Source: Tyzzerella sp. An114
GTDB taxonomy: Bacteria > Bacillota > Clostridia > Lachnospirales > Anaerotignaceae
Direction: 5' to 3'
Length of the DNA stretch: 57,326 nt
Assembly: GCF_002161055.1 (NCBI RefSeq)
Contig: NZ_NFLT01000012.1
Location: forward strand, 1-57,326
Numbering within the stretch: the stretch's first letter is position 1; each line of letters opens with the position of its first letter. The position numbers and the translations under genes were made by a program. A model generated the notes under the pieces. It worked only from the letters and a program-made list of their open reading frames with translations, had not been told where the DNA came from and did not search any database. This document shows positions 8,183 through 28,391 of the stretch, in pieces.

Positions 8183-9010
8183 TTAAATACTATTAAAGTT
8201 TTTTAATCTATATTCAGAAGGTGTACAATCTTTTTTATTTTTAAAAAGTCTTGAAAAATAAAGAGCGTCTTCATATCCAACAGAACGAGCGATTGCAGAT
8301 ATAGGATAATCTGTATGAGCTAATAAGTCACAAGCTTTTTTAATACGATAATTTAAAAGATAATTTTTAAGAGATAAACCTGTTGTATTTTTAAATAATC
8401 TGTGCAAATAGGAGCGGTCTATACTTAAAAAATCTGCTATGCTGTGAACATTTATGTTGTATGAATAGTTTGACTCTATATATTTTAAGGCTTCTTCCAC
8501 ATATGCAACCTTTCTTTCTTTTACAGAAATATTTTTTTTAGGGAATTTATTGGCTAACATAAATAAATATTCATATAAAATACTATTCATAATCAAATCT
8601 TTATTTTCAAAACTTTGATTTGCCTCATACATTTTTTCATGACAGAGACGTATTCTGTCATCTCGTCCATAATGAAAAACAGGACAATCAAGTAGAGACG
8701 TTCTGTTTAAATACTGTTTAATCTTAATACCTTGAAATCCTATCCATGTATAAGTCCAAGGATTTTTTAAATCAGCTTCATAATATATCAATGTTCCCGG
8801 AACAATCAAAAAAGCATCTCCCGAGCTTAATCGATATATTTTATTTTTTGTTTTAAAAATTCCTTTCCCATCTATAACATAATGAATAAGATATCCACTT
8901 CTTACGGCAGGTCCATAACTATGACCAGGCACACAAGACTCATATCCACAAGTATAAACTGTTGCATCAATATTTTGAAAATATTCATTTGAAAAAATAT
9001 AATCTTGCAT
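8183..9010 (-). CDS. AraC-family regulator of the alpha-galactoside locus
   Basis: A 275-aa transcription factor. The N-terminal half (about 1-150) is a cupin-type sugar-sensing domain (HYVIDGKGIF, GDAFLIVPGT). The C-terminal ~100 residues carry two helix-turn-helix units, with IADFLSIDRSYLHRLFK and the family signature ISAIARSVGYEDALYFSRLF. It is transcribed divergently from the alpha-galactosidase gene with a 130-bp gap, the usual position of an MsmR/RafR-like activator. Likely inducer: melibiose, raffinose or a derivative (inferred). Confidence 0.85.
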   Translation of the reverse strand: MQDYIFSNEYFQNIDATVYTCGYESCVPGHSYGPAVRSGYLIHYVIDGKGIFKTKNKIYRLSSGDAFLIVPGTLIYYEADLKNPWTYTWIGFQGIKIKQYLNRTSLLDCPVFHYGRDDRIRLCHEKMYEANQSFENKDLIMNSILYEYLFMLANKFPKKNISVKERKVAYVEEALKYIESNYSYNINVHSIADFLSIDRSYLHRLFKNTTGLSLKNYLLNYRIKKACDLLAHTDYPISAIARSVGYEDALYFSRLFKNKKDCTPSEYRLKNFNSI

Positions 9011-11338: not shown

Positions 11339-12751
11339 ATGGATGCAAAGAAAAGAGAAAGATATGAAAAAATATCAGACAGACTAACAGAACTTGTAGG
11401 CGGAAAAGATAATATTCAAGGAGTTGCTCACTGTGCAACAAGATTAAGAATTGTTTTAAAAGACAATGACATAGCAGATTTAAAACAGATTGAAGGTGTA
11501 GACCTTGTAAAAGGTGTGTTTGTTGCAGGAGACCAGCTTCAGATTATATTTGGAGCAGGTTTGGTAAATGATGTATATGAAGTATTTGCCGAGAGAAGTA
11601 ATATGAAAAATATGAGCCTTAGTGATTTAAAAACAGAGGCAAACAGAAAAATGAACCCTATACAGAGAATTATAAAAGCTCTCTCTGATGTATTTATTGA
11701 TATCATGCCGGGAATACTTGCTGCTGCTTTACTTACAGGATTATCAGGAGTTTTAGGTAATTTTCAGTTTATAGAAAATAGTGATACTCTTTTCGGTATT
11801 ACAAAATTAATAAATATTGCTTCAGGAGCAATATTTGGATTTCTTCCTCTTGCAGTTGCTTATAGTGCTTGTAAAAGATTTGGAGGAAGACCTATATTAG
11901 GAATTGTAATGGGTTGTATAATGCTTTCTCCAAGTCTTGCTGATGCTTATGCTGCGGCACAAGGAACAGTTGATGTTGAAACATTACATATTTTTGGATT
12001 AGGTATTGACCTTGTAGGATTTCAAGGTGGAATTATAGTAGCATTGCTTATGGGTGTTTTAACTGCAAAACTTGATATATTCTTTGAAAAGAAAGTACCA
12101 GAAGTAATAAGACTTCTTGTTTCACCACTTTTAACAACACTTGTAGGAGCAATTCTTCTTTTTGTAATCGTAGGACCTATTGGTAGAGGACTTGCTTCAG
12201 GAATAACAAATGGACTTGTATTTATGACACAAAATTTTGGTGCTATTGGTTATGCAATATTCTCAGGAGTACAGCAGTTAATAGTAATTACAGGACTTCA
12301 TCATATATTTGGTGCTATTGAAGCACAGTTACTCGTTGATACAGGAAGAAACTTTTTAAATCCTTTAATGTCTGTTGCAATAATTGCTCAGGGTGGAGCT
12401 GTTTTAGGTTATCTTGTATTAAACAGAAAAGACAACAAAGTAAAAGAACTTTGTATACCTAGTTTTATTTCAGTATTATTTGGTATTACAGAGCCAGCTT
12501 TATTTGGTATAAATGTAAGATTTAAGTTTCCTTTAATAGGTGGTTGTATTGGAGGAGCTATTGGTGGACTTGTTGTTTATTTTACAAACCTTGCTGCTTT
12601 AGGATTTGGAACAACAGTTGTTCCGGGAATTGCTCTTGCGGACCCTAGCAATAACGGTTATATTTGGTATATAGTTGCTCATTTAATAGCTTTAGCTTGT
12701 GGATTTATAATAACAATTCTTTTAGGTTTAAAAAATAAAGTTAATAATTAA
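11339..12751 (+). CDS. PTS EIIBC, glucose/sucrose-glucoside superfamily
   Basis: A 470-aa membrane permease. The N-terminal EIIB domain (1-90) has the phosphorylated Cys32 in HCATRLRI. It is followed by a ten-segment EIIC domain (about 110-470) containing TGLHHIFGAIEAQLL and FGITEPALFGI. No EIIA domain is present, so it must borrow one; the nearest is fused to the beta-glucoside permease at 14022-15938. Downstream of the alpha-galactosidase, it may import an alpha-galactoside or sucrose. Specificity inside this superfamily cannot be settled by eye. Confidence 0.85.
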   Translation: MDAKKRERYEKISDRLTELVGGKDNIQGVAHCATRLRIVLKDNDIADLKQIEGVDLVKGVFVAGDQLQIIFGAGLVNDVYEVFAERSNMKNMSLSDLKTEANRKMNPIQRIIKALSDVFIDIMPGILAAALLTGLSGVLGNFQFIENSDTLFGITKLINIASGAIFGFLPLAVAYSACKRFGGRPILGIVMGCIMLSPSLADAYAAAQGTVDVETLHIFGLGIDLVGFQGGIIVALLMGVLTAKLDIFFEKKVPEVIRLLVSPLLTTLVGAILLFVIVGPIGRGLASGITNGLVFMTQNFGAIGYAIFSGVQQLIVITGLHHIFGAIEAQLLVDTGRNFLNPLMSVAIIAQGGAVLGYLVLNRKDNKVKELCIPSFISVLFGITEPALFGINVRFKFPLIGGCIGGAIGGLVVYFTNLAALGFGTTVVPGIALADPSNNGYIWYIVAHLIALACGFIITILLGLKNKVNN

Positions 12752-12759
12752 TTAATGTA

Positions 12760-12789
12760 GAAATCCGGATAATTTGTTATCCGGATTTC
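12760..12789 (+). terminator. 13-bp hairpin after the EIIBC gene
   Basis: A perfect 13-bp stem, GAAATCCGGATAA with its complement, and a TTTG loop, 9 nt after the stop codon. The following T-tract is weak, so termination may be partial. Confidence 0.7.
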
Positions 12790-12858
12790 TAATTATAAAA
12801 ATTATATTTTTGTCTAAAACGTATAAAAATCAATGTGTATTATATGAATATGTTACAA

Positions 12859-12887
12859 TTGACAAAATAATATATATTATTTATAAT
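12859..12887 (+). promoter_or_regulatory. Consensus sigma-A promoter of the licT/bglP operon
   Basis: TTGACA at 12859-12864 and TATAAT at 12882-12887 with a 17-bp spacer match the vegetative consensus exactly. The predicted start, near 12894, lies just before the antiterminator hairpin. Strong initiation with control by antitermination is the standard arrangement for LicT systems. Confidence 0.88.
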
Positions 12888-12901
12888 AATTACAGCATAC
12901 A

Positions 12902-12933
12902 GGATAGTTATTGTTTCAGAACAAGCTCGACCT
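12902..12933 (+). promoter_or_regulatory. Ribonucleic antiterminator (RAT) for a LicT/BglG protein
   Basis: GGATAGTTATTG followed by CAAGCTCGACCT resembles the BglG/SacY/LicT RAT pattern (GGATNGTTA...GCAAAACCT). Its 3' end overlaps the left arm of the terminator at 12929-13005, so forming the RAT hairpin with bound LicT would prevent the terminator from folding. Confidence 0.75.
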
Positions 12934-13005
12934 GTTATATTTTAAATCAGCGATAGTCCACTTTTATTTTGGTATCGTTTTTTTAGAATATAACAGGTCT
13001 TTTTA
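12929..13005 (+). terminator. Leader terminator controlled by the RAT
   Basis: The left arm, GACCTGTTATAT at 12929-12940, pairs with its complement at 12988-12999 and is followed by TTTTTATTTTT. The loop between the arms is long, about 47 nt. It lies 30 nt before the licT start. Confidence 0.82.
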
Positions 13006-13029
13006 TTTTTAACGGGGGGAGAAAGTATT

Positions 13030-13869
13030 ATGTTTTTTAAAAAACGACTTAACAATAATGCTGTAATAGCCCATGACGGAAATGGAAATGAAAAAATACT
13101 TATGGGTTGTGGTCTTGGTTTTAAAATGCAGGAAGGTGATATTGTTGATGAAAGTAAAGTTGAGAAAGTATTTTCATTAACAGACCCTAAAATGAATAGA
13201 CTCCTTCAGGAACTTGCTATTAATACACCAATAGAGTTTATTGATTTTGCAGAGTAAATAATATCTTATGCAAAGAAACAAATTGATAATGATATAAATG
13301 AAAATATAATAGTATCTCTCTGTGACCATGTTTATATGGCTGTTGAAAGATTTAAACAAGGTATAGAAGTTAAAAATGTTATGCTTTGGGATATTAAAAA
13401 GTTTTATAGAGATGAATTTGAAGTTGGACTTTACGCCATTGATATTATAAAAAAGAGATTTGGTGTTCAACTAGCAGAAGATGAAGCTGGTTTTATTGCA
13501 CTTCATATAGTAAATGCTCAGCTTGATTTACATAAAAAATCTGTAAAAGAAATTACAGAGGTTATGCAAGAGATAGAGACAATAGTAAGAATTACATTTG
13601 CAACAAAATTAGATACAAATTCAGTTTACTATTATAGATTTATAACACATCTAAAGTTTTTTGCTGAAAGACTTTTTAATGAAAGTATATATGAAAATCA
13701 AGATGTTGAAGGCCTTTTGGATATGATAAAAATTAAATATGTAAAGGCATATAATTGTGTATTGAAAATTTCTGATTTTATATATAATAAGTACAATTAT
13801 ACATTAAGCGATGAGGAGATACTTTATTTAAGTATTCATATAACACAAGTAATAAATGCATCAAAGTGA
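13030..13869 (+). pseudogene. licT: LicT/BglG-type antiterminator with an in-frame stop
   Basis: Read through, this is a 279-aa antiterminator of exactly the usual length. Residues 1-55 are the RNA-binding CAT domain (MFFKKRLNNNAVIAHD...GCGLGF), followed by two PRD domains (DEAGFIALHIVNAQ, DEEILYLSIHITQ) that carry regulatory His residues. A TAA at 13255-13257 interrupts codon 76; the frame continues unchanged on both sides, so a single GAA-to-TAA change explains it. The first piece holds CAT plus the start of PRD1; the second could begin at an ATG at 13336 but lacks CAT. Isolated CAT domains can act constitutively, so the operon may be uncoupled from sugar control. Sequencing error is possible. 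Confidence 0.85.
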
Positions 13870-17474: not shown

Positions 17475-17500
17475 AAAAAAGCAGAGTGTAACAACTCTAC
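17475..17500 (-). terminator. Minus-strand terminator of the retron RNA unit
   Basis: On the minus strand, GTAGAGT and ACTCTGC form a 7-bp stem (one G-T pair) with a 6-nt loop, followed at once by TTTTTT (17475-17480). On the + strand the following sequence is less uniform. It lies 25 nt beyond the distal retron RNA copy and supports minus-strand transcription of both copies. Confidence 0.7.
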
Positions 17501-17524
17501 TTTTCATAATTTTGTAAAAATAAT

Positions 17525-17729
17525 AGGTTAGATTTTCTGCTAACAAGTAATTATTCTGTTCTGACACTTTAGTACCGCTGTACTACTATTAGGTTATTAC
17601 CGAAGGATAATTTTAATACCTAATAGTAGTATACTGCGGTAACGAGTTGCGCAGAACATAGTGGTGTAAATGTTACTAACATACAACCTTGAGGCTACCT
17701 CAAAGTATAAAGACCAGAAAATCTAACCT
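17525..17729 (-). ncRNA. Retron-like msr-msd RNA, distal copy
   Basis: A 205-nt element bounded by a perfect 15-bp inverted repeat (17525-17539 with 17715-17729; 14 bp of it shared with the other copy), like retron a1/a2. Read on the minus strand it has: a1; hairpin TTGAGG-TAG-CCTCAA; hairpin with ATGTT/AACAT and a 3-nt loop; a long msd-like hairpin closed by GTTCTG/CAGAAC, with an inner TACCGC/GCGGTA stem and a 13-bp variable stem (17581-17593 with 17619-17631); an 18-nt linker; a2. This order, short hairpins then long hairpin then a2, is the normal retron plan only on the minus strand. There is no coding potential. Confidence 0.82.
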
Positions 17730-17774
17730 TTTAGTTTTCCATATTAAATTTTAAAAAATTATTTTTTTTACGAT

Positions 17775-17976
17775 GGTTAGATTTTCTGCTAACAAGTAAT
17801 TATTCTGTTCTGACACTTTAGCACCGCTGTTATACCGGTAGGTTATTACCGAAGGATAATTTTAATACCTTCCGGTATAATACTGCGGTAGCGAGTTGCG
17901 CAGAACATAGTGGTGTAATGTTGCGAACATACGACCTTGAGGCTACCTCAAAGCATAAGGACCAGAAAATCTAACC
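17775..17976 (-). ncRNA. Retron-like msr-msd RNA, promoter-proximal copy
   Basis: A 202-nt near-duplicate of the 17525 element with identical 14-bp terminal repeats (17775-17788 with 17963-17976), the same two 3-nt-loop hairpins and the same long hairpin. The 13-bp variable stem differs (17830-17842 with 17868-17880): five positions changed on both arms so that pairing is kept, and one became a T-T mismatch. The apical part between the arms is identical in both copies. It starts 12 nt after a minus-strand -10 box, as expected for a transcript beginning just before a1. It is the template candidate for the reverse transcriptase at 22717. Confidence 0.85.
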
Positions 17977-17987
17977 TGTTTTTATTA

Positions 17988-18015
17988 ATTATAGCACATA
18001 TTAATAAAAAGTCAA
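17988..18015 (-). promoter_or_regulatory. Minus-strand promoter of the retron RNAs
   Basis: On the minus strand, TTGACT (18015-18010) and TATAAT (17993-17988) are separated by 16 bp. Position 17976, the first base of a1, is 12 nt after the -10 box. It is divergent from the protein-gene promoter at 18056-18083. Confidence 0.8.
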
Positions 18016-18055: not shown

Positions 18056-18083
18056 TTGAAAATATATTAAAACACGGTATAAT
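18056..18083 (+). promoter_or_regulatory. Promoter of the retron protein operon
   Basis: TTGAAA at 18056-18061 and a perfect TATAAT at 18078-18083, with a 16-bp spacer. The start codon of the first gene lies 64 nt downstream, after AAGGAAGGAG. The RNA copies lie upstream of this promoter and so are not part of this transcript. Confidence 0.8.
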
Positions 18084-18146: not shown

Positions 18147-20957
18147 ATGGAAGTTATAAAAAGAGAACTAACTCCGGAAGAACGCGAACGTTTTTGGGGT
18201 GTAGAACAAAAGCCTGTTCGACAAATTTCACTCTGGGGAAAAGATAGTGAAAATAATCCTTGTAGAATTATTTTATATGGTGAACATCAAGCTGAATTAA
18301 AAAAAGTTAGAAAATCTTATTATTATGATGTTTTTGAAGGTTATGTTCTTGATAAAAATGTTAAATACACCCACTATGCTATATTCTATGGTGTTAATGG
18401 ACATTTACCTTCTACTGTGAAAACATATTATCATGTTGACACAAATACACTTTATACTCAAAAAGGATATAAAGAGGCACAGACCTATTGGGATTGGAAC
18501 AGTAATAATTACACATACACAAAGAAACTGAGATTTGATAGTAAATATAAAATTGAAGAATTTTATGAAATAGATGTAGATGTTTCATTTAATTATTATG
18601 AAAATCATAATTATAAAGACTATGTTTTATATTTAAAATCAAACAACATAAAATTTAAAGGTTGTGAAATCATTGAGCCTAGTGAAATATTTGGATTTGA
18701 TGAAAACAGTATGTATTACAATTATGTTTTAGATATGTTTTCAAAAGAAAAATTATATGGCAGAAAGAAAGCTTTAAGTGATTTTATTAAAACTAATCCT
18801 TCTGTTGAGGAATATGAAAAAATACTTAAAGTGGCTAGTGTTGAGTTAGCTTGCGGTATATTCCAAGAACTTACAATCTCTCAAAATCCTATTTTGTTAA
18901 ATAAGGCAAAAGAAATAAATAAAAGTAAAGATTTATGGTCAACAAGTAATGCTGTACATAAAGGATTAAAACGCTGCTTAAAAATATATATAAATGCTTT
19001 CAGTGAAAAAACAATACAGAAACAGAAAGATGCTATATATAAATCATTACCTGAAATGGACTTCCATATTAAAAGATTGAATTTGTATGGTAATGTTATA
19101 ACAGGTGATGCTTTAGATGAGTATTTAAAAAATCATTCATATTTTAGTATTTTTAATGGTGGTTGGCTTTCATTAAAACAAAAATTCTTTGACAAAAATA
19201 CATACACTGATGGCAAAAACTTTAAAAAGATTGCTTTTAAAAATACTATACAAACAGCAAAAGCCTATGATATGGTTGATGCTATTGGAAAAATTGCCTA
19301 CTGTCTTGATGCTCCAAGAACAACTTATTATTTAAAGGGTATTGGAGAGGGTAAAGCTTATGATTATTTTGTTCGTTATATAAGAAGAACTATTGACGAG
19401 TATAAAAGAACAGAGGAGACAAAATTTATAGCAGCGGCAAAAGAAATGCTTGTAAGCTATACACCTAAAGATGGTATGGAATATTTTGACTTTGAAAATT
19501 ATTTTAATAGAAATTATTTCTTTAATCGTTATTTTGCAAATAAAATAAAACTTGGAATAAGAGATAAAGAAGATGTTTGGGATAGACATATTGATGATGT
19601 AGTATATATTGCAAGAAATGCAAAAACAGATGCAGTAGGCAAATTCTGTTATATTACAATAAAGAAGGCTTATGACAATCATAAATTTGATGATTATGAT
19701 TTAAAAGACCTCATATATTTAACTCAGATACCTTACACTGAAACAGCTAAATTATTTGAAAATCTTGTATTACCTAAGTTAAAAGCTCTTGAAAACTTTG
19801 ATGGAGAAATTATGCTTCTTTTAATGGACACTGTTTTAGTTAATTTACAGCGTGCTGCTGAAGACTATTTTGTTAGAACAGACGGAAAATTCTTACCTGA
19901 AAATATTGCAAGTATGTTCAAATTAAATAGCTTTGAAAAATGGTTGATGATAATTAAAAAGAATATACACGACTTTACAGCAACTGAGTATATCGCTTTT
20001 ATAAAGAGCTTTTTAAATCAGAATGAGTATTTTGTAAAAGACGGATTGAAATTTTCAGATAATGTTAAAGAATTCTTGAAAAATTCAATATCTAAATTGA
20101 ATGATGCTACAAAAGAAGAAAAACAAGATTTATTACAGTATATTGTGTCAATGTTTATTGAGAATACAGAATTAACTGACTTTATGGCTGATTTAATAGA
20201 GGATATGTTATTTGTTTTACCTTATTATGAACTTAAGGAATTATTACAGAATGTTGAGTTTAAAAATATTGCTATGAAAGAGAAAACTCGCAATACTGTT
20301 GCATTGTTGAAATCTATAAAAAACGAAAAACTTCCTAAAGATACTGTTATAGTATCTATACTTGATATAGGTTCTCCTATGATTGTAAAAGTATTGACAG
20401 AGGTTATAGAAAAATTAAAATACAAGATTACAAATAAATCAACAATTCTTATTCTCTTTGAATGTAATGTATATGCTTTAAATAAAACTGCTGAGACAGT
20501 TTTTGAGAATATGGATACTGAAAATAGAGATAAGATACATATGATTTTAATTGACTCTCCTGTTGAGAAAGTACATAAATATGCTTTAGAAAAATTAGAT
20601 GAGTGGTATGGAAATAAAACACCTAAAGAGTTTATTTATCGTATGTTAGAGCACCCTTGTATAGCTGTAAAATCATTCCTTTCAGAGAAAATGGATAATG
20701 CTTTCTCAAATTTGAAAGATGTACAGCCAGATTTATATATTTATTATGTAAAAACACTTTTATATCTTCCTAATAGGGTATCAAAAAGTAAAGATTATGT
20801 TTACAATACAATACCTACATTTATAAAATATTACCCTGAAAGAAGAAAAGAAATTGAAGATATATTAATTGATATTGGAAGTACAAATGTTAAATTTAAT
20901 TCTGAAAAAGCACTTGTTACATTTGCAAGAATTCAGAAGGAGGTATGCAATCTATGA
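18147..20957 (+). CDS. ARM/HEAT-like repeat protein of a type XIII-like retron
   Basis: A 936-aa soluble protein with no signal peptide or TM segment. Residues 1-180 form a beta-rich N-terminal region with many aromatics (SLWGKD, YGEHQAELKK, YWDWNSNNYTY). Most of the rest (about 200-936) is a run of amphipathic helical pairs rich in Leu/Lys, as in ARM/HEAT solenoids, for example EKVHKYALEKLDEWYGN. No nuclease, protease or nucleotide-binding motif was seen. It is first in a three-gene operon with WH-SWIM and RT genes. A large repeat protein plus WH-SWIM is the accessory pair I recall for type XIII retrons. Likely a scaffold or effector subunit; function not established here. Confidence 0.75.
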   Translation: MEVIKRELTPEERERFWGVEQKPVRQISLWGKDSENNPCRIILYGEHQAELKKVRKSYYYDVFEGYVLDKNVKYTHYAIFYGVNGHLPSTVKTYYHVDTNTLYTQKGYKEAQTYWDWNSNNYTYTKKLRFDSKYKIEEFYEIDVDVSFNYYENHNYKDYVLYLKSNNIKFKGCEIIEPSEIFGFDENSMYYNYVLDMFSKEKLYGRKKALSDFIKTNPSVEEYEKILKVASVELACGIFQELTISQNPILLNKAKEINKSKDLWSTSNAVHKGLKRCLKIYINAFSEKTIQKQKDAIYKSLPEMDFHIKRLNLYGNVITGDALDEYLKNHSYFSIFNGGWLSLKQKFFDKNTYTDGKNFKKIAFKNTIQTAKAYDMVDAIGKIAYCLDAPRTTYYLKGIGEGKAYDYFVRYIRRTIDEYKRTEETKFIAAAKEMLVSYTPKDGMEYFDFENYFNRNYFFNRYFANKIKLGIRDKEDVWDRHIDDVVYIARNAKTDAVGKFCYITIKKAYDNHKFDDYDLKDLIYLTQIPYTETAKLFENLVLPKLKALENFDGEIMLLLMDTVLVNLQRAAEDYFVRTDGKFLPENIASMFKLNSFEKWLMIIKKNIHDFTATEYIAFIKSFLNQNEYFVKDGLKFSDNVKEFLKNSISKLNDATKEEKQDLLQYIVSMFIENTELTDFMADLIEDMLFVLPYYELKELLQNVEFKNIAMKEKTRNTVALLKSIKNEKLPKDTVIVSILDIGSPMIVKVLTEVIEKLKYKITNKSTILILFECNVYALNKTAETVFENMDTENRDKIHMILIDSPVEKVHKYALEKLDEWYGNKTPKEFIYRMLEHPCIAVKSFLSEKMDNAFSNLKDVQPDLYIYYVKTLLYLPNRVSKSKDYVYNTIPTFIKYYPERRKEIEDILIDIGSTNVKFNSEKALVTFARIQKEVCNL

Positions 20958-22720
20958 ATGTAAATTATAAATACGCAAGTCCTTCTCAATGTAAACAAGC
21001 CGACAATGGAACGACTTTAGGTTTTAGTACAGACTTATCCCGTGATGAGAAAGTTTCTTTTTTAGGAAAATTAAAACATCCTTTAGTTTTTCGTGATGCT
21101 ATGCTTATGCTTAGAGATATTGTTATATCTGACATGAGCCAAAAAACAAAAGAAAGACCTGAATATTTTGTTTGGCTTGAAGAAGAAATTGAAAGACGTA
21201 TAAAAGAGCATAAAGAGTATGCACCTAATATAAGAAAGAAAATTAAAGAAGAAATAAATGCTTTCAGTGCTGAAGCTGATAAATATAATTCTGAAATAAG
21301 AAAATTAAACGATATTAAAAGAGAATTACAAAATAAAATTGATGAATATGACGCTTGGAAAGATTACTATAAAATAGAGAGAAAGTTTTGGGATTTTTTG
21401 AGAGAAAGAGATTATGATTTGTGGTTTGTATTAGACCCTGTTATAACAGTTCATAAAGATCAAGTTTCTTTCGAGGCATTTTCTGTTGATGAGTCAACTT
21501 ATGGCTGTTTATCTGTTGATATGAAAGAGTTTGATTTATTGCAGGAGCCAAATCTTGGAACAACAAATATAGATTTCTCTGTTAAACTTGAAAAAGAGAT
21601 GAAACGTTTCCGCAGCTATACAGATGTAACACTGTCTGTAAATCCTGAAGGTTTCACAGTAGATAGTGATGTTGTACCAGAGTATATTGAAAAGAAAATT
21701 GATTTACCTGAGACATGGATAAAAGGCTTTAATCAGGTTTCTTCAGCGGCAGCCCTTGATGGAATTGAAATTAAACTTGAAGTTTCTGATATGTATGATA
21801 TATGTGCATTTTTGAGAAAACATAAAGAGAAAAAGAGCCCTCGTTATATGAAATGGATACTTGAACCAGGAGAGAGAATACAGATTGTATTTGAGCCTTT
21901 TGGAACAGTTCTTACATTAAATTCTATATATAATGGTAACCAGAGACGAGAAGAAAAAATCTGGGGCAGAAGACGTTGGCTTGTTGTTGAAAAATTGCTA
22001 CCTCTCTCAAAGGCTTTCTATATTCGTTTATTGGGATTTGGTATGCCACAGTTCATACGTGCAGATATGGGCACAATTCAGATGACAGTTGGATTTACTT
22101 CTTGGTCATCTAATGACTGGGTAAAAGGTACAGCCTTTAATATTATGGCTGGATTTACAGGAAACGGAAACTATAAAGATGTTTATAAACTTCTTAAACA
22201 AAATCGTAGTATGACTATGGAAGAAATATTCAACAGTTTCCCAGATGTTAAGAAAGATGTAGTAAAAGCAGGAATTGGTATGTTATTCAGACATGGAGAG
22301 GGATATTTTGATATTATAACAAATCAAGTTCGTTTCCGTCGTCTTTGCAGTGAGCCTTTACCTAAAGAGCTTTATGAAATCTCTTATATAGAGAAAGAAG
22401 TTGAAAAACTTAATAAACAGACATTTAATAATATGACAGTTAAGTATACACCATCAAAAGAATTTATATTCTCTACAAAGTATAAAGGTTCTTATTGGTG
22501 GGAAAGTGATACAAATACAGAAATTATTGTTGACCAAGATGCACAGATTGTAAAAGTAAAATGTAATTGTAGCAAATTTAGAAGTGGTGATAGAAATATT
22601 TCTGACCCTTGTGCACATATTCTTGCACTTTATATTGCTTCTTTTAAATTATTGAAATTAAAAAATTTAGAGTATAACAAGGAATATAAAATCAATGATA
22701 TTATGGAGATGTTGCTATGA
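20954..22720 (+). CDS. Winged-helix and SWIM zinc-finger protein (retron accessory)
   Basis: A 588-aa protein. Near the C-terminus is a SWIM finger, C537-x-C539-x13-C553-x-H555. Before it is a winged-helix-like segment (about 410-470: MEEIFNSFPDVKKDVVKAGI followed by FRHGEGYFDI). The N-terminal part has a long charged coiled coil (about 70-130) and a beta-rich middle. SWIM and winged-helix domains bind nucleic acid or protein, so this is a candidate partner for the RNA or msDNA. The ATG at 20954 overlaps the upstream TGA and is 10 nt after AGGAGG; an ATG at 20945 is only 1 nt after it and is less likely. It overlaps the RT start by 4 nt. Confidence 0.8.
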   Translation: MNVNYKYASPSQCKQADNGTTLGFSTDLSRDEKVSFLGKLKHPLVFRDAMLMLRDIVISDMSQKTKERPEYFVWLEEEIERRIKEHKEYAPNIRKKIKEEINAFSAEADKYNSEIRKLNDIKRELQNKIDEYDAWKDYYKIERKFWDFLRERDYDLWFVLDPVITVHKDQVSFEAFSVDESTYGCLSVDMKEFDLLQEPNLGTTNIDFSVKLEKEMKRFRSYTDVTLSVNPEGFTVDSDVVPEYIEKKIDLPETWIKGFNQVSSAAALDGIEIKLEVSDMYDICAFLRKHKEKKSPRYMKWILEPGERIQIVFEPFGTVLTLNSIYNGNQRREEKIWGRRRWLVVEKLLPLSKAFYIRLLGFGMPQFIRADMGTIQMTVGFTSWSSNDWVKGTAFNIMAGFTGNGNYKDVYKLLKQNRSMTMEEIFNSFPDVKKDVVKAGIGMLFRHGEGYFDIITNQVRFRRLCSEPLPKELYEISYIEKEVEKLNKQTFNNMTVKYTPSKEFIFSTKYKGSYWWESDTNTEIIVDQDAQIVKVKCNCSKFRSGDRNISDPCAHILALYIASFKLLKLKNLEYNKEYKINDIMEMLL

Positions 22721-24183
22721 TGGACACAAGGACTGAATATAGAGAACAAGTAAATAAAATGGGCAAGAAGGAGTTTACATTCCAAAAAATGCAAGAATAC
22801 GGTTTTTGGCCTAGCCATTTGCCAACTCCTTATGAACGCCAACAGAACGAAACAGAAGAAGATTTTGAAAATAGAAAAAAACTTCTTGATGAATTTAATA
22901 AACTTTCAGAACAAATATCAGAAGTATATAAAGAAAAACGTGAAATAGATATAAAACTTTCATCTCTCAAAAAAGAGTATCAAGATACATGGGACTACGA
23001 AAAAATCCGTGCTGTTGTTTGTCAGGAGATTATGAAAGAGTCTATTGCAAGAAGAGCAGAGAGAAAAGCTGAAAGAGAAAGACAGAAACAGTTAAAATCC
23101 GAGGCTTGGAATAAAAAGAAAGCTGAAAATATTATATTTATAGGTAGAGGATATTCTGGTCTTTTATCACAGAAAGAAACTAATATTGAGAAGCTCGAAA
23201 AAAATAATCTCCCTATAATAGAAAATGATAAAGATTTAGCCACTCTTTTACAAGTAGAGTATAAAACATTACGTTATTTGACATATCATAGAGATGTTGT
23301 AACATTTGACAACTATTATAGATTTGATATTCCTAAAAAAAGTGGGGGAAAACGTCATATAGCTGCTCCTAAAACAGAGCTTAAAAAAGCTCAAAGACAG
23401 ATATTAGAAGAGATTTTGGAGAAAATAGAAGTTTCTGAATTTGCTCATGGATTTATTAAATCAAAATCTGTTGTAACAGGAGCTAAATTTCATAAGTCAG
23501 GACCAGATTTATTAATTAATATGGACTTGGAAAACTTTTTCCCTACAATAACATTTGAGAGAGTAAGAGGACTTTTTCAGTCATTAGGTTATTCTGGATA
23601 CATTTCATCATTACTTGCAATGATTTGTACATACTGTGAAAGAATTCCTGTTGAAATAAAAGGTGAAACAAAATATATAAAAACATCAGAAAGAATACTT
23701 CCACAGGGTTCTCCTGCAAGTCCTATGATTACAAATATTATATGTAACAAAATGGATAAACGTATAAATGGACTTTGTAAAAAATTAGGGTTTACTTATA
23801 CACGTTATGCTGATGATATGAGTTTTAGCTATATAGGTGATACAGAAAATTTAGCTGTTGGAAGTTTCTTAAACAGTATTAAAAAGATTATAGAAGATGA
23901 AGGTTTTAATATAAAAAAAGAAAAAACACATATTTTAAGGAAAAATAATAGACAATATATTACAGGTATTGTAATTAACAATGAAGAAATAGGTGTTCCA
24001 AGAAAATGGGTTGATATTTTAAGAGCTTCTATTCATAATGCGGAGAAATTAAAAAACTCAGGAGAAAGTATACCTAAAGAAACAAAAATGGAAATTAAGG
24101 GAAGAATTGCTTGGTTAAAGAGTGTCAATGAAGAAAGGTACAAAAAGATAATAGATAAAGGTTTAAAATTATTAGAAAACTAA
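22717..24183 (+). CDS. Retron-type reverse transcriptase
   Basis: A 488-aa reverse transcriptase. The catalytic Asps are D270 in MDLENFF and D366-D367 in YADDM; LPQGSPASP is the B-domain turn. Retron traits: GAKFH (255-259), a degenerate form of the NAxxH motif, and RQYITG (I415-T416-G417) in place of the VTG motif used in RNA recognition. The N-terminal ~165 residues are an extra charged coiled coil starting with YGFWP, not seen in short retron RTs (about 300-350 aa). There is no maturase or endonuclease domain, arguing against a group II intron. It should copy the structured RNAs upstream into msDNA. It is last in its operon, followed by a terminator. Confidence 0.9.
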   Translation: MMDTRTEYREQVNKMGKKEFTFQKMQEYGFWPSHLPTPYERQQNETEEDFENRKKLLDEFNKLSEQISEVYKEKREIDIKLSSLKKEYQDTWDYEKIRAVVCQEIMKESIARRAERKAERERQKQLKSEAWNKKKAENIIFIGRGYSGLLSQKETNIEKLEKNNLPIIENDKDLATLLQVEYKTLRYLTYHRDVVTFDNYYRFDIPKKSGGKRHIAAPKTELKKAQRQILEEILEKIEVSEFAHGFIKSKSVVTGAKFHKSGPDLLINMDLENFFPTITFERVRGLFQSLGYSGYISSLLAMICTYCERIPVEIKGETKYIKTSERILPQGSPASPMITNIICNKMDKRINGLCKKLGFTYTRYADDMSFSYIGDTENLAVGSFLNSIKKIIEDEGFNIKKEKTHILRKNNRQYITGIVINNEEIGVPRKWVDILRASIHNAEKLKNSGESIPKETKMEIKGRIAWLKSVNEERYKKIIDKGLKLLEN

Positions 24184-27087: not shown

Positions 27088-28391
27088 ATGTTACAGGAAA
27101 CAATGCAAAAGATGATTCCTTTTGTAGTAAAATTTTCAAATTTTAAAGTTGTAAAAGCCTTAAAGAGTGGTTTCATAAGAACTGTTCCATTTACTCTTAT
27201 AGGTTCTGTATTCCTTCTTATTGCGAATCTTCCGATATCAGGATACAACGAATTTATGGCAGGGATTTTTGGAGCAAACTGGGCTGCACCTCTCAATCAG
27301 GTAGTAGGTGGTACATTTAATATTCTTGCAATTTATGCAGCTTTTGCTCTTGCATATGAATTTTGTGTTGAAGATGGACTTGATGGTGTACCTGCTGGAC
27401 TTTTCGGAGTTGCCGGACTTTTTATAATGACAGGTTCATCAATAGAAGTTAATGGAGAAATTATTGGTGGCGCTATACCTAGTGTTTGGCTTGGTGGTCA
27501 GGGACTTATAGCAGCTGTTATATCAAGTCTTCTTGCTGGAGCTATATATTCTTGGTTTATCAAAAGAGATATAAGAATTAAACTTCCAGAAAGTGTTCCA
27601 CCAGCTGTTGCTAACTCTTTCTCAGCTTTAATTCCAGGTGCTGTAATACTTACTGTTTTTATGGTATTACATATTGTTATAAACAAACTTACAGGACTTT
27701 CAGTAACAGAAGCAATTTATAACTGGCTTCAGATACCATTACAGAATTTAACTGATACATTACCTGGTATTATAATTGTTTCAATACTTATTTCTGTATT
27801 CTGGTGGTGTGGAATTCATGGAGATGCTATTATATTAAATATTTTAGCACCTATTTTACAGTCAAATATGCTTGCAAATCAGCAAGTTGTTGAAGCAGGA
27901 AAAAACTTGTTGTAGGTGAAAATGCAAGAATTATAACAGACCAATTTACATTATTCCTTAAAATGGGTGGTGCAGGTTTAACAATAGGTCTTGTAATAAG
28001 TATGTTTATATTTGCAAAGTCAAAACAGATGAAACAGCTTGGTAAACTTGCTATTGGACCAGCTTTCTTTAATATAAATGAACCTATTATATTTGGTACA
28101 CCAATTATATTTAACCCTATTATGCTTATTCCTTTTATAATAGTACCAACTCTTTCGGTTATAATTGGATATTTTGCAATATCAACAGGTATTGTTCCAC
28201 CATTCACAGGAGTTACAGTTCCTTGGACAATGCCACCTGTTTTAAGTGGTCTTATAACAGGAGGTTGGAGACTTGCTCTTTTACAACTTGCTATTGTTGT
28301 TATGAGTGTTGTAATTTATGCACCTTTCTTTAAAATGCAAGATAAACTTATATGTGAACAGGAAAAAGAAGCAGAACTTAATGAAGATTGA
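27088..28391 (+). pseudogene. celB: PTS EIIC, lactose/cellobiose family, frameshifted
   Basis: The sugar channel of the operon, which would be 434 aa with about ten TM segments, is split after residue 275. The break is at an A-tract, 27900-27905 (six A's): with seven A's the frame reads GKKLVVGENARIITDQ and continues to the stop at 28391. Both halves keep family motifs (KSGFIRTVPFTLIGS, WWCGIHGDAIILN; NINEPIIFGTP, TVPWTMPP). A homopolymer deletion, sequencing error or slippage-tolerant tract are all possible. If real, EIIA and EIIB lack a working channel. Confidence 0.85.

Follow-up and report, generated by a model that had tools for sequence, protein, structure and literature searches.

The retrons Eco1 (Ec86), Eco2 (Ec67), and Eco8 are not known to have more than one ncRNA each. 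The general anatomy of such an RNA, as set out in one survey, comprises an msr hairpin of 7 to 10 bp with a loop of 3 to 10 nt, a long msd hairpin, and a guanosine at the end of a1; this guanosine is found in the contexts TAGC, CAGC, GAGC, CAGA, or ACGC, of which TAGC is the commonest and thus not an absolute requirement, and the msd stems of Eco1, Eco2, and Eco8 generally contain mismatches or wobbles (PMC6868368). In known retrons the msDNA complex silences an effector, and modification, binding, or degradation of the msDNA by a phage protein lifts this silencing; according to two further papers, the msDNA stem can be a site of the trigger, as in Ec86, where a phage methyltransferase modifies it, and other triggers are SSB in Eco8 and an exonuclease in Sen2 (PMC13158370; PMC12409349). 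The link between the sequence or stem structure of an msDNA and what its retron senses is described as still unclear (PMC13158370). In a study of Eco1, msDNA fell when the P4 (msd) stem was broken at its base or tip but not elsewhere, and it was regained with other sequences that pair (PMC11754653).

We analyzed a stretch of 57,326 nucleotides from Tyzzerella sp. An114, here called the window. By its gene set the locus at 18147-24183 is a type XIII retron, a putative and probable anti-phage system, in which PADLOC assigns WGR_XIII, SWIM_XIII, and RT_XIII to one operon on the plus strand:

18056..18083, plus strand: promoter-like site of the operon, TTGAAA-16-TATAAT (sequence scan)
18147..20957, plus strand: WGR_XIII protein, 936 aa (PADLOC 2e-9, a weak match covering residues 476-586 only)
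20945..22720, plus strand: SWIM_XIII protein, 591 aa (PADLOC 1e-181)
22717..24183, plus strand: retron type XIII reverse transcriptase (RT), 488 aa (PADLOC RT_XIII, 1.8e-162)

The RT is also matched by further retron RT models in PADLOC and by Pfam RVT_1, and its translation contains YADD. The WGR and SWIM proteins belong to no family in Pfam or NCBIfam. An AlphaFold2 model of the WGR protein (pLDDT 86) shows a beta-rich N-terminal part (about residues 24-149) followed by helical repeats, and no catalytic domain was recognized in it. Among the best 50 of its 824 Foldseek matches (E <= 10), most are large helical-repeat proteins, for example SF3b core and CAND1 chains, with TM-scores below 0.25; matches of such low TM-score reveal no effector activity. 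The predicted structure of the SWIM protein is of poor confidence (pLDDT 66). As judged by sequence searches, the gene set is uncommon: of 392 genomes sampled from the order, 14 have SWIM_XIII at E <= 1e-60, and a phylum-wide draw of 398 genomes returned only the window's own genome. A search of viral contigs with the SWIM alignment gave nine pattern matches, none of them confirmed, and a distant blastn search of phage and plasmid collections with 17524-17974 gave no match; the collections searched thus offer no hint that the element travels on phages or plasmids. Rfam at the gathering threshold reported nothing in the window. Elsewhere in the window, a reading frame at 12742-13869, which we take from its look to be an antiterminator of the LicT/BglG type, is broken by a stop at 13255-13257, between its N-terminal and PRD-like parts, and represents either a pseudogene or a sequence error; similarly, an apparent PTS EIIC gene at 27088-28391 is split over two frames near 27.9 kb by a frameshift or a sequence error.

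Ahead of the operon lie two nearly identical elements that are almost certainly two units of a tandem ncRNA array:

17773..17976, minus strand: ncRNA unit copy 2, nearest the promoter, in the order a1, msr hairpin, msd hairpin, a2 (covariance model R1, 174.8 bits as a training member)
17524..17728, minus strand: ncRNA unit copy 1, the second unit (covariance model R1, 185.9 bits as a training member)
17963..17976, minus strand: a1 of copy 2, pairing with 17775-17788 (inverted repeat I7, 14/14)
17775..17788, minus strand: a2 of copy 2 (inverted repeat I7)
17715..17728, minus strand: a1 of copy 1, pairing with 17526-17539 (within inverted repeat I1)
17526..17539, minus strand: a2 of copy 1 (inverted repeat I1)
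17934..17954, minus strand: msr hairpin of copy 2 (fold and alignment)
17686..17706, minus strand: msr hairpin of copy 1, 9 bp with a 3-nt loop (fold and alignment)
17830..17842 and 17868..17880, minus strand: both arms of the distal msd stem of copy 2 (pairwise alignment)
17581..17593 and 17619..17631, minus strand: both arms of the distal msd stem of copy 1 (pairwise alignment)
17845..17860, minus strand: apical segment of copy 2
17596..17611, minus strand: apical segment of copy 1, of CCTNCGG type in most homologues

Model R1 was built from sequences that include both window copies. No third unit was found in the genome by blastn or by the covariance model. Both units retain a1/a2, the msr hairpin, the apex, and pairing; inverted repeat I1 of copy 1 has 27-nt arms that are 89% complementary, and over 57 units the a1/a2 ends pair in 655 of 663 cells. 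Compared with dinucleotide shuffles, RNA folding of the two copies gave z-scores of -7.9 and -6.5 on the plus strand and -7.9 and -7.0 on the minus strand, and DNA folding gave -5.5 for both. As in Eco1, Eco2, and Eco8, there is a short-loop msr hairpin of 7 to 10 bp, a long msd hairpin, and a conserved guanosine ending a1. The GG at alignment columns 12-13, the end of a1, is invariant in 57/57 units and mostly lies within (C/T)TGG(T/C), so that the context differs from that in the Eco retrons and is not one of the five priming-guanosine contexts listed above, a point against the reading favored below; the accessory proteins are also unrelated. The locus resembles the retron type XIII of PADLOC in having three proteins in one operon and an adjoining ncRNA with a1/a2, msr, and msd hairpins. 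It departs from that type in having two ncRNA units, with up to six in relatives, and in the placement of the RNA, which in clade A points away from the operon, in clade B lies downstream of the RT, and in three draft genomes is detached.

These relatives came from a search of genome contigs with the SWIM alignment, which yielded 56 loci and, with the window and L035 added, 58 sources. The covariance model found at least one ncRNA unit in 45 of the 58 (57 units in total), and nine further units on other contigs bring the number to 66. Loci of the Lachnospirales type, in which the RNA sits upstream of the WGR gene, make up clade A; clade B covers Clostridium and others, and there the RNA follows the RT on the same strand. 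Within the window's family, RNA was found in 9 of 58 genomes, the same nine that have SWIM_XIII, with the reservation that the SWIM searches may cover fewer than 58. Relatives carry one to six units, and most RNA-bearing genomes have one. At least two units with different stems are present in seven genomes besides that of the window; L039 has six units, L040, which is the complete genome of Clostridium sp. ASF356 (NZ_CP097810.1), has four, and L073 has three, while two each are found in the window, L038, G217 (L125, at 8258-8715 of G217:C12, downstream of the RT), and G237 (L124, detached), and at least two in G313 (L115), whose array lies at a contig end. In G281 one unit stands at the end of each of two contigs, and these are probably one array. 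L042 has no adjacent unit; in its genome two units stand next to a WGR gene on a different contig (L115). The genome of L043 has two detached units, and those of L048 and L050 have one each. A tblastn search found no WGR, SWIM, or RT of type XIII near them, covering the whole contig in the genomes of L048 and L050 and the last 9 kb of a 35-kb contig in that of L043; since all three genomes are draft metagenome assemblies, mis-binning is possible. No unit was found anywhere in the genomes of L044, L060, L086, L089, L090, and L091; for L074, L076, and L092 the search covered the locus and found no unit there. Three places, L124 8176-8664 (G237:C25), L132 8894-9094, and L133 5519-5721, hold units with good promoter-like sites and no type XIII gene in the surrounding sequence covered, in genomes whose operon lacks an adjacent unit; either such RNAs work in trans or their contigs are mis-binned. 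L073 3780-12778 is a clade B type XIII retron on a contig assigned to Lokiarchaeota, a binning that may be wrong; in this locus a 1681-aa frame replaces the WGR gene and one of the three units has a divergent apex.

Several lines of evidence bear on the strand and transcription of the array. The order a1, msr hairpin, long msd hairpin, a2 is obtained on the minus strand only. Total folding energy, lower on that strand in 36/57 units, does not decide between the strands. In alignment A3, columns 81-174 and 83-172 hold G-U in 53/57 and 55/57 units on the window-minus strand, the corresponding pairs on the plus strand being C.A. Because of these G-U columns and the promoters, the ncRNA is placed on the minus strand, divergent from the genes. 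The following signals flank the array:

17988..18015, minus strand: promoter-like site for the array (TTGACT-16-TATAAT, its -10 preceded by TG), which ends 13 nt ahead of copy 2
17476..17505, minus strand: terminator-like hairpin and T run after copy 1, a possible transcript end (scan)

Another promoter-like site, scoring 10/12, lies beyond the array on the minus strand (17494-17467), and the best site in the 70 nt preceding copy 1 scores 8/12. Among clade A first units, all 24 that could be tested score at least 10/12, with the -10 ending 9 to 21 nt before a1 (the unit of L114, cut by a contig end, was left out), compared with 0/11 inner units and 47/920 shuffled 70-mers. A terminator-like site follows the last unit in L039, and a simple scan found none after the L040 array. 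The same simple scan flagged the msr hairpin itself as terminator-like in 4/4 units of L040, 4/6 of L039, and 1/2 of the window; as single-unit loci have the same hairpin, it probably does not stop transcription. In line with these positions, each array of adjacent clade A units would be read as one transcript, and the arrangement suggests that both window units share one transcript from a single promoter. Elsewhere the pattern differs: inner units of L073 (clade B) have promoter-like sites of 9 and 10 of 12, and both units of the detached pair in G237 have one (11 and 10 of 12).

Pairwise alignment of copy 1 (17526-17728) with copy 2 (17775-17976) gave 19 differences in 203 columns, one of them a 1-nt gap. 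The distal stem, with its 26 positions, accounts for eleven of these, and the other 177 positions for eight (Fisher p = 7e-7). Exactly as the initial annotation had described, five of the 13 stem pairs are changed on both sides with pairing kept and one has gone from T-A to T-T, the other seven being unchanged. Its statement that the changes are confined to this stem goes too far, since the pair 17573/17642 in the basal msd helix, outside the 13-bp stem, is a sixth compensatory change (T-A to C-G), and the remaining 6 differences fall on the msr side. It named no strand for the RNA.

The same annotation read the stem as selected for its structure while its sequence diversifies and, more speculatively, as presenting different duplexes to a phage sensor or nuclease. 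Across homologues the duplex is indeed kept. With the best 13-bp register taken for each of 36 clade A units, 457/468 pairs are Watson-Crick and 11 are mismatches other than G-T, with no G-T, a pair that a register chosen for Watson-Crick pairs can hide; controls that reassigned right halves to other sequences, with the register left equally free, gave a mean of 308 and a maximum of 323 in 40 trials. A fixed register would put 17 of the 36 units out of register. The 24 clade B units have 279/312 Watson-Crick pairs, 13 G-T, and 20 others (control mean 214, maximum 226), and all 66 units together have 812/858 Watson-Crick and 13 G-T. Longer stems derived from folds, which favor paired positions and so can hide broken pairs but not G-U, contain G-U in 7/585 pairs in clade A and 6/295 in clade B (13/880 together). 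Elsewhere in the 57 units, G-U makes up 123/513 pairs of the msr hairpin and 32/663 of a1/a2. Wobble is thus tolerated in the msr, which stays RNA, and scarce in the distal stem, and we read this as a constraint on the DNA form, a reading tempered by the two basal msd helices, which themselves differ in G-U content (130/228 in one and 2/285 in the other). It is quite probable that the distal stem is constrained as a duplex at the DNA level. Comparison of nearest stems in clade A (28 unit pairs, not independent) revealed 79 Watson-Crick double changes (47 transversions and 32 transitions), 9 single changes that break a pair, 7 broken doubles, 1 double through G-U, and no single wobble; in clade B (22 unit pairs) there were 46 doubles, 1 single broken change, and no single wobble. 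That nearly all changes are Watson-Crick doubles fits selection for pairing, and it also fits one-step template switching.

How fast the stem changes was judged from single-copy clade A loci. At RT divergence 0.10-0.15 (35 pairs), the stem differs by 0.24 and the core by 0.06, so the stem changes about four times faster; the corresponding values are 0.29 and 0.07 at 0.15-0.20 (36 pairs) and 0.57 and 0.16 at 0.20-0.30 (78 pairs). For units of the same array (23 pairs from the window, L038, L039, and L040), whose RT divergence is zero, the mean difference is 0.63 for the stem and 0.16 for the core; by these means the ratio is like that of old single-copy pairs. We further compared 29 within-locus pairs with single-copy pairs of similar core divergence, taking the least diverged pair from each of eight multi-unit loci. 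The pair from L124 (stem 37/52, core 5/109) lies above all 20 comparable single-copy pairs, that from L038 (32/53, 7/108) above all 41, and that from L040 (37/54, 8/108) above all 52; L039 (6/55, 0/108) exceeds its sole comparator and L125 (10/54, 1/108) its 2 comparators. On its sequence, L125 is an independent example of the pattern seen in the window. The others rank at 0.90 (L073, n = 41), 0.79 (L115, n = 29), and 0.73 (the window, n = 52), the stem divergence of the window pair thus exceeding that of 73% of comparable single-copy pairs. Several arrays show a strong excess of stem divergence, and the pair in the window is ordinary, so that the selection which the initial annotation saw in these two copies is not apparent from them alone. 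Its proposal of a hypervariable but covarying block held in the second respect, the stem pairs covarying across homologues, and failed in the first. Units of L039 and L040, whose RTs differ by 3.3%, are slot-by-slot partners with partner stems differing by 0.03-0.17, whereas nonpartner units within L039 or within L040 have stem differences of 0.47-0.81, apart from two pairs in L039 (0.14 and 0.26), and L049, L054, and L057 have an identical 17-nt stem arm at an RT divergence of 0.117 for L049/L057; the stem is therefore not hypervariable. The fixed stem that had been named as grounds for refutation is found in one group.

Overall, we favor the reading, with a probability of about 0.6 for the whole chain, that several different msDNAs are made and kept from a tandem template array by one RT. 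As the sequence shows, a type XIII template RNA has been duplicated into a tandem array, which is probably read as one minus-strand transcript from one promoter directed away from the WGR-SWIM-RT operon. The one RT would find the msr hairpin, basal msd helix, and apical segment alike in every unit, each folded through its own a1/a2, and would make several msDNAs that differ only in a distal duplex of about 11 to 17 bp. Covariation and the scarcity of G-T suggest that this duplex must be near-perfect Watson-Crick as DNA, unlike the msd stems of Eco1, Eco2, and Eco8, and is free in sequence; within an array the stems remain distinct from one another and the cores similar. In its likeliest use, the set of msDNA hairpins might hold the WGR/SWIM effector complex, with the several duplexes facing phage proteins that process or modify DNA, and any triggering phage protein might release the complex. 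That array stems serve as a repertoire of phage triggers in this way is a tentative idea, somewhat short of even odds; most RNA-bearing genomes have one unit, so several stems are not needed. The slot-by-slot conservation in L039 and L040 would also be expected from their short divergence.

The main rival, which we consider about as probable as a repertoire of triggers, is that extra units raise the amount of msDNA, acting as antitoxin, while the stem drifts by compensatory substitution and the copies stay functionally alike. The fourfold faster change of the stem between single-copy loci, the ordinary rank of the window pair, and the single promoter of each adjacent clade A array are all as expected from dosage plus drift, which explains the window pair equally well. 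The general sequence tolerance of the Eco1 P4 stem favors it as well (PMC11754653); if valid here, this tolerance means that the RT alone would not require a perfect stem throughout and that extra stems are cheap. Against it, the stems within one array are mostly unrelated, and in five of the eight multi-unit loci even the least diverged pair exceeds every core-matched single-copy pair (two of these with 1-2 comparators).

A mutational route would call for less selection: template switching in the inverted repeat would alter both arms at once, and gene conversion, which may explain similar cores with different stems, would keep the cores alike. The preponderance of Watson-Crick doubles, the excess of transversions over transitions in clade A, and the lack of any single wobble step point this way, as do msr sequences that are identical in L039 5014/5250 and in L073 12325/12584 beside differing stems. 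However, single broken changes do occur (the nine in clade A and, among array units, the T-T of the window), and pairing kept over all loci, single-copy ones included, would still need long-run selection. This route is unlikely to be the main explanation and is not exclusive of the other readings. A stronger proposal, that phages drive ongoing diversifying selection on a hypervariable stem, draws on the contrast of stem and core in L124, L038, and L040, and is improbable given the similar partner stems of the two species L039 and L040, the arm common to L049, L054, and L057, and the unexceptional window pair. An assembly artefact or a dead second copy is very improbable: the window genome is a draft of 78 contigs, and one unit each of L073 and G313 looks degenerate, but an array of four units stands in a complete genome (L040) and both window units keep all their parts.

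Two other origins for the stem sequences were tried and set aside. As restriction or methylation sites, 32 nonredundant arms hold 10 palindromic 6-mers against 6.4 expected (reached by 211/2000 shuffles), 5 palindromic 8-mers against 1.4 (33/2000), and 32 palindromic 4-mers against 28 (460/2000), an excess not treated as significant because three lengths were tried. As copies of a chromosomal site, neither 13-nt left arm has an exact match outside its own unit. The imperfect right arm of copy 2 has one exact match in the genome (G000:C1:58361-58373), probably by chance. Of the 32 arms, 14 contain ACTA (1.8 expected) and 6 contain TACCG (0.3 expected); such short common motifs come from ancestry or function.

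Engineered retron arrays, reportedly named multitrons, likewise offer several msr-msd units to one RT and are man-made for genome editing. None of the papers listed in searches of the open PMC library concerns natural tandem or detached retron ncRNAs, and searches within PMC12548924 and PMC12405507 found no passage on "XIII" or tandem ncRNA; the original type classification may mention them. Arrays of two to six units with distinct stems, a divergent promoter, and detached units are thus apparently undescribed in the open literature, with an earlier mention possible.

Taken together, these loci could represent a natural multi-bait retron, in which one RT and a set of templates, in tandem and sometimes in trans and differing mainly in a near-perfect DNA duplex, would provide a small inherited repertoire of msDNA hairpins, each luring a different phage protein that modifies or binds DNA; we hold this full picture to be more doubtful than the repertoire of triggers by itself. 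The arrays suggest that a retron may have more than one RNA unit and that such units may work in trans, and an annotation search that ends with a single ncRNA next to the RT would overlook the others. The arrays also bear on multi-template editing tools. On the hypothesis above, a system with several stems could respond to more triggers. Within one strain, with one RT and one effector set, the units of a natural array differ mainly in the stem, and such arrays are therefore an experiment already set up on whether phage specificity depends on stem sequence.
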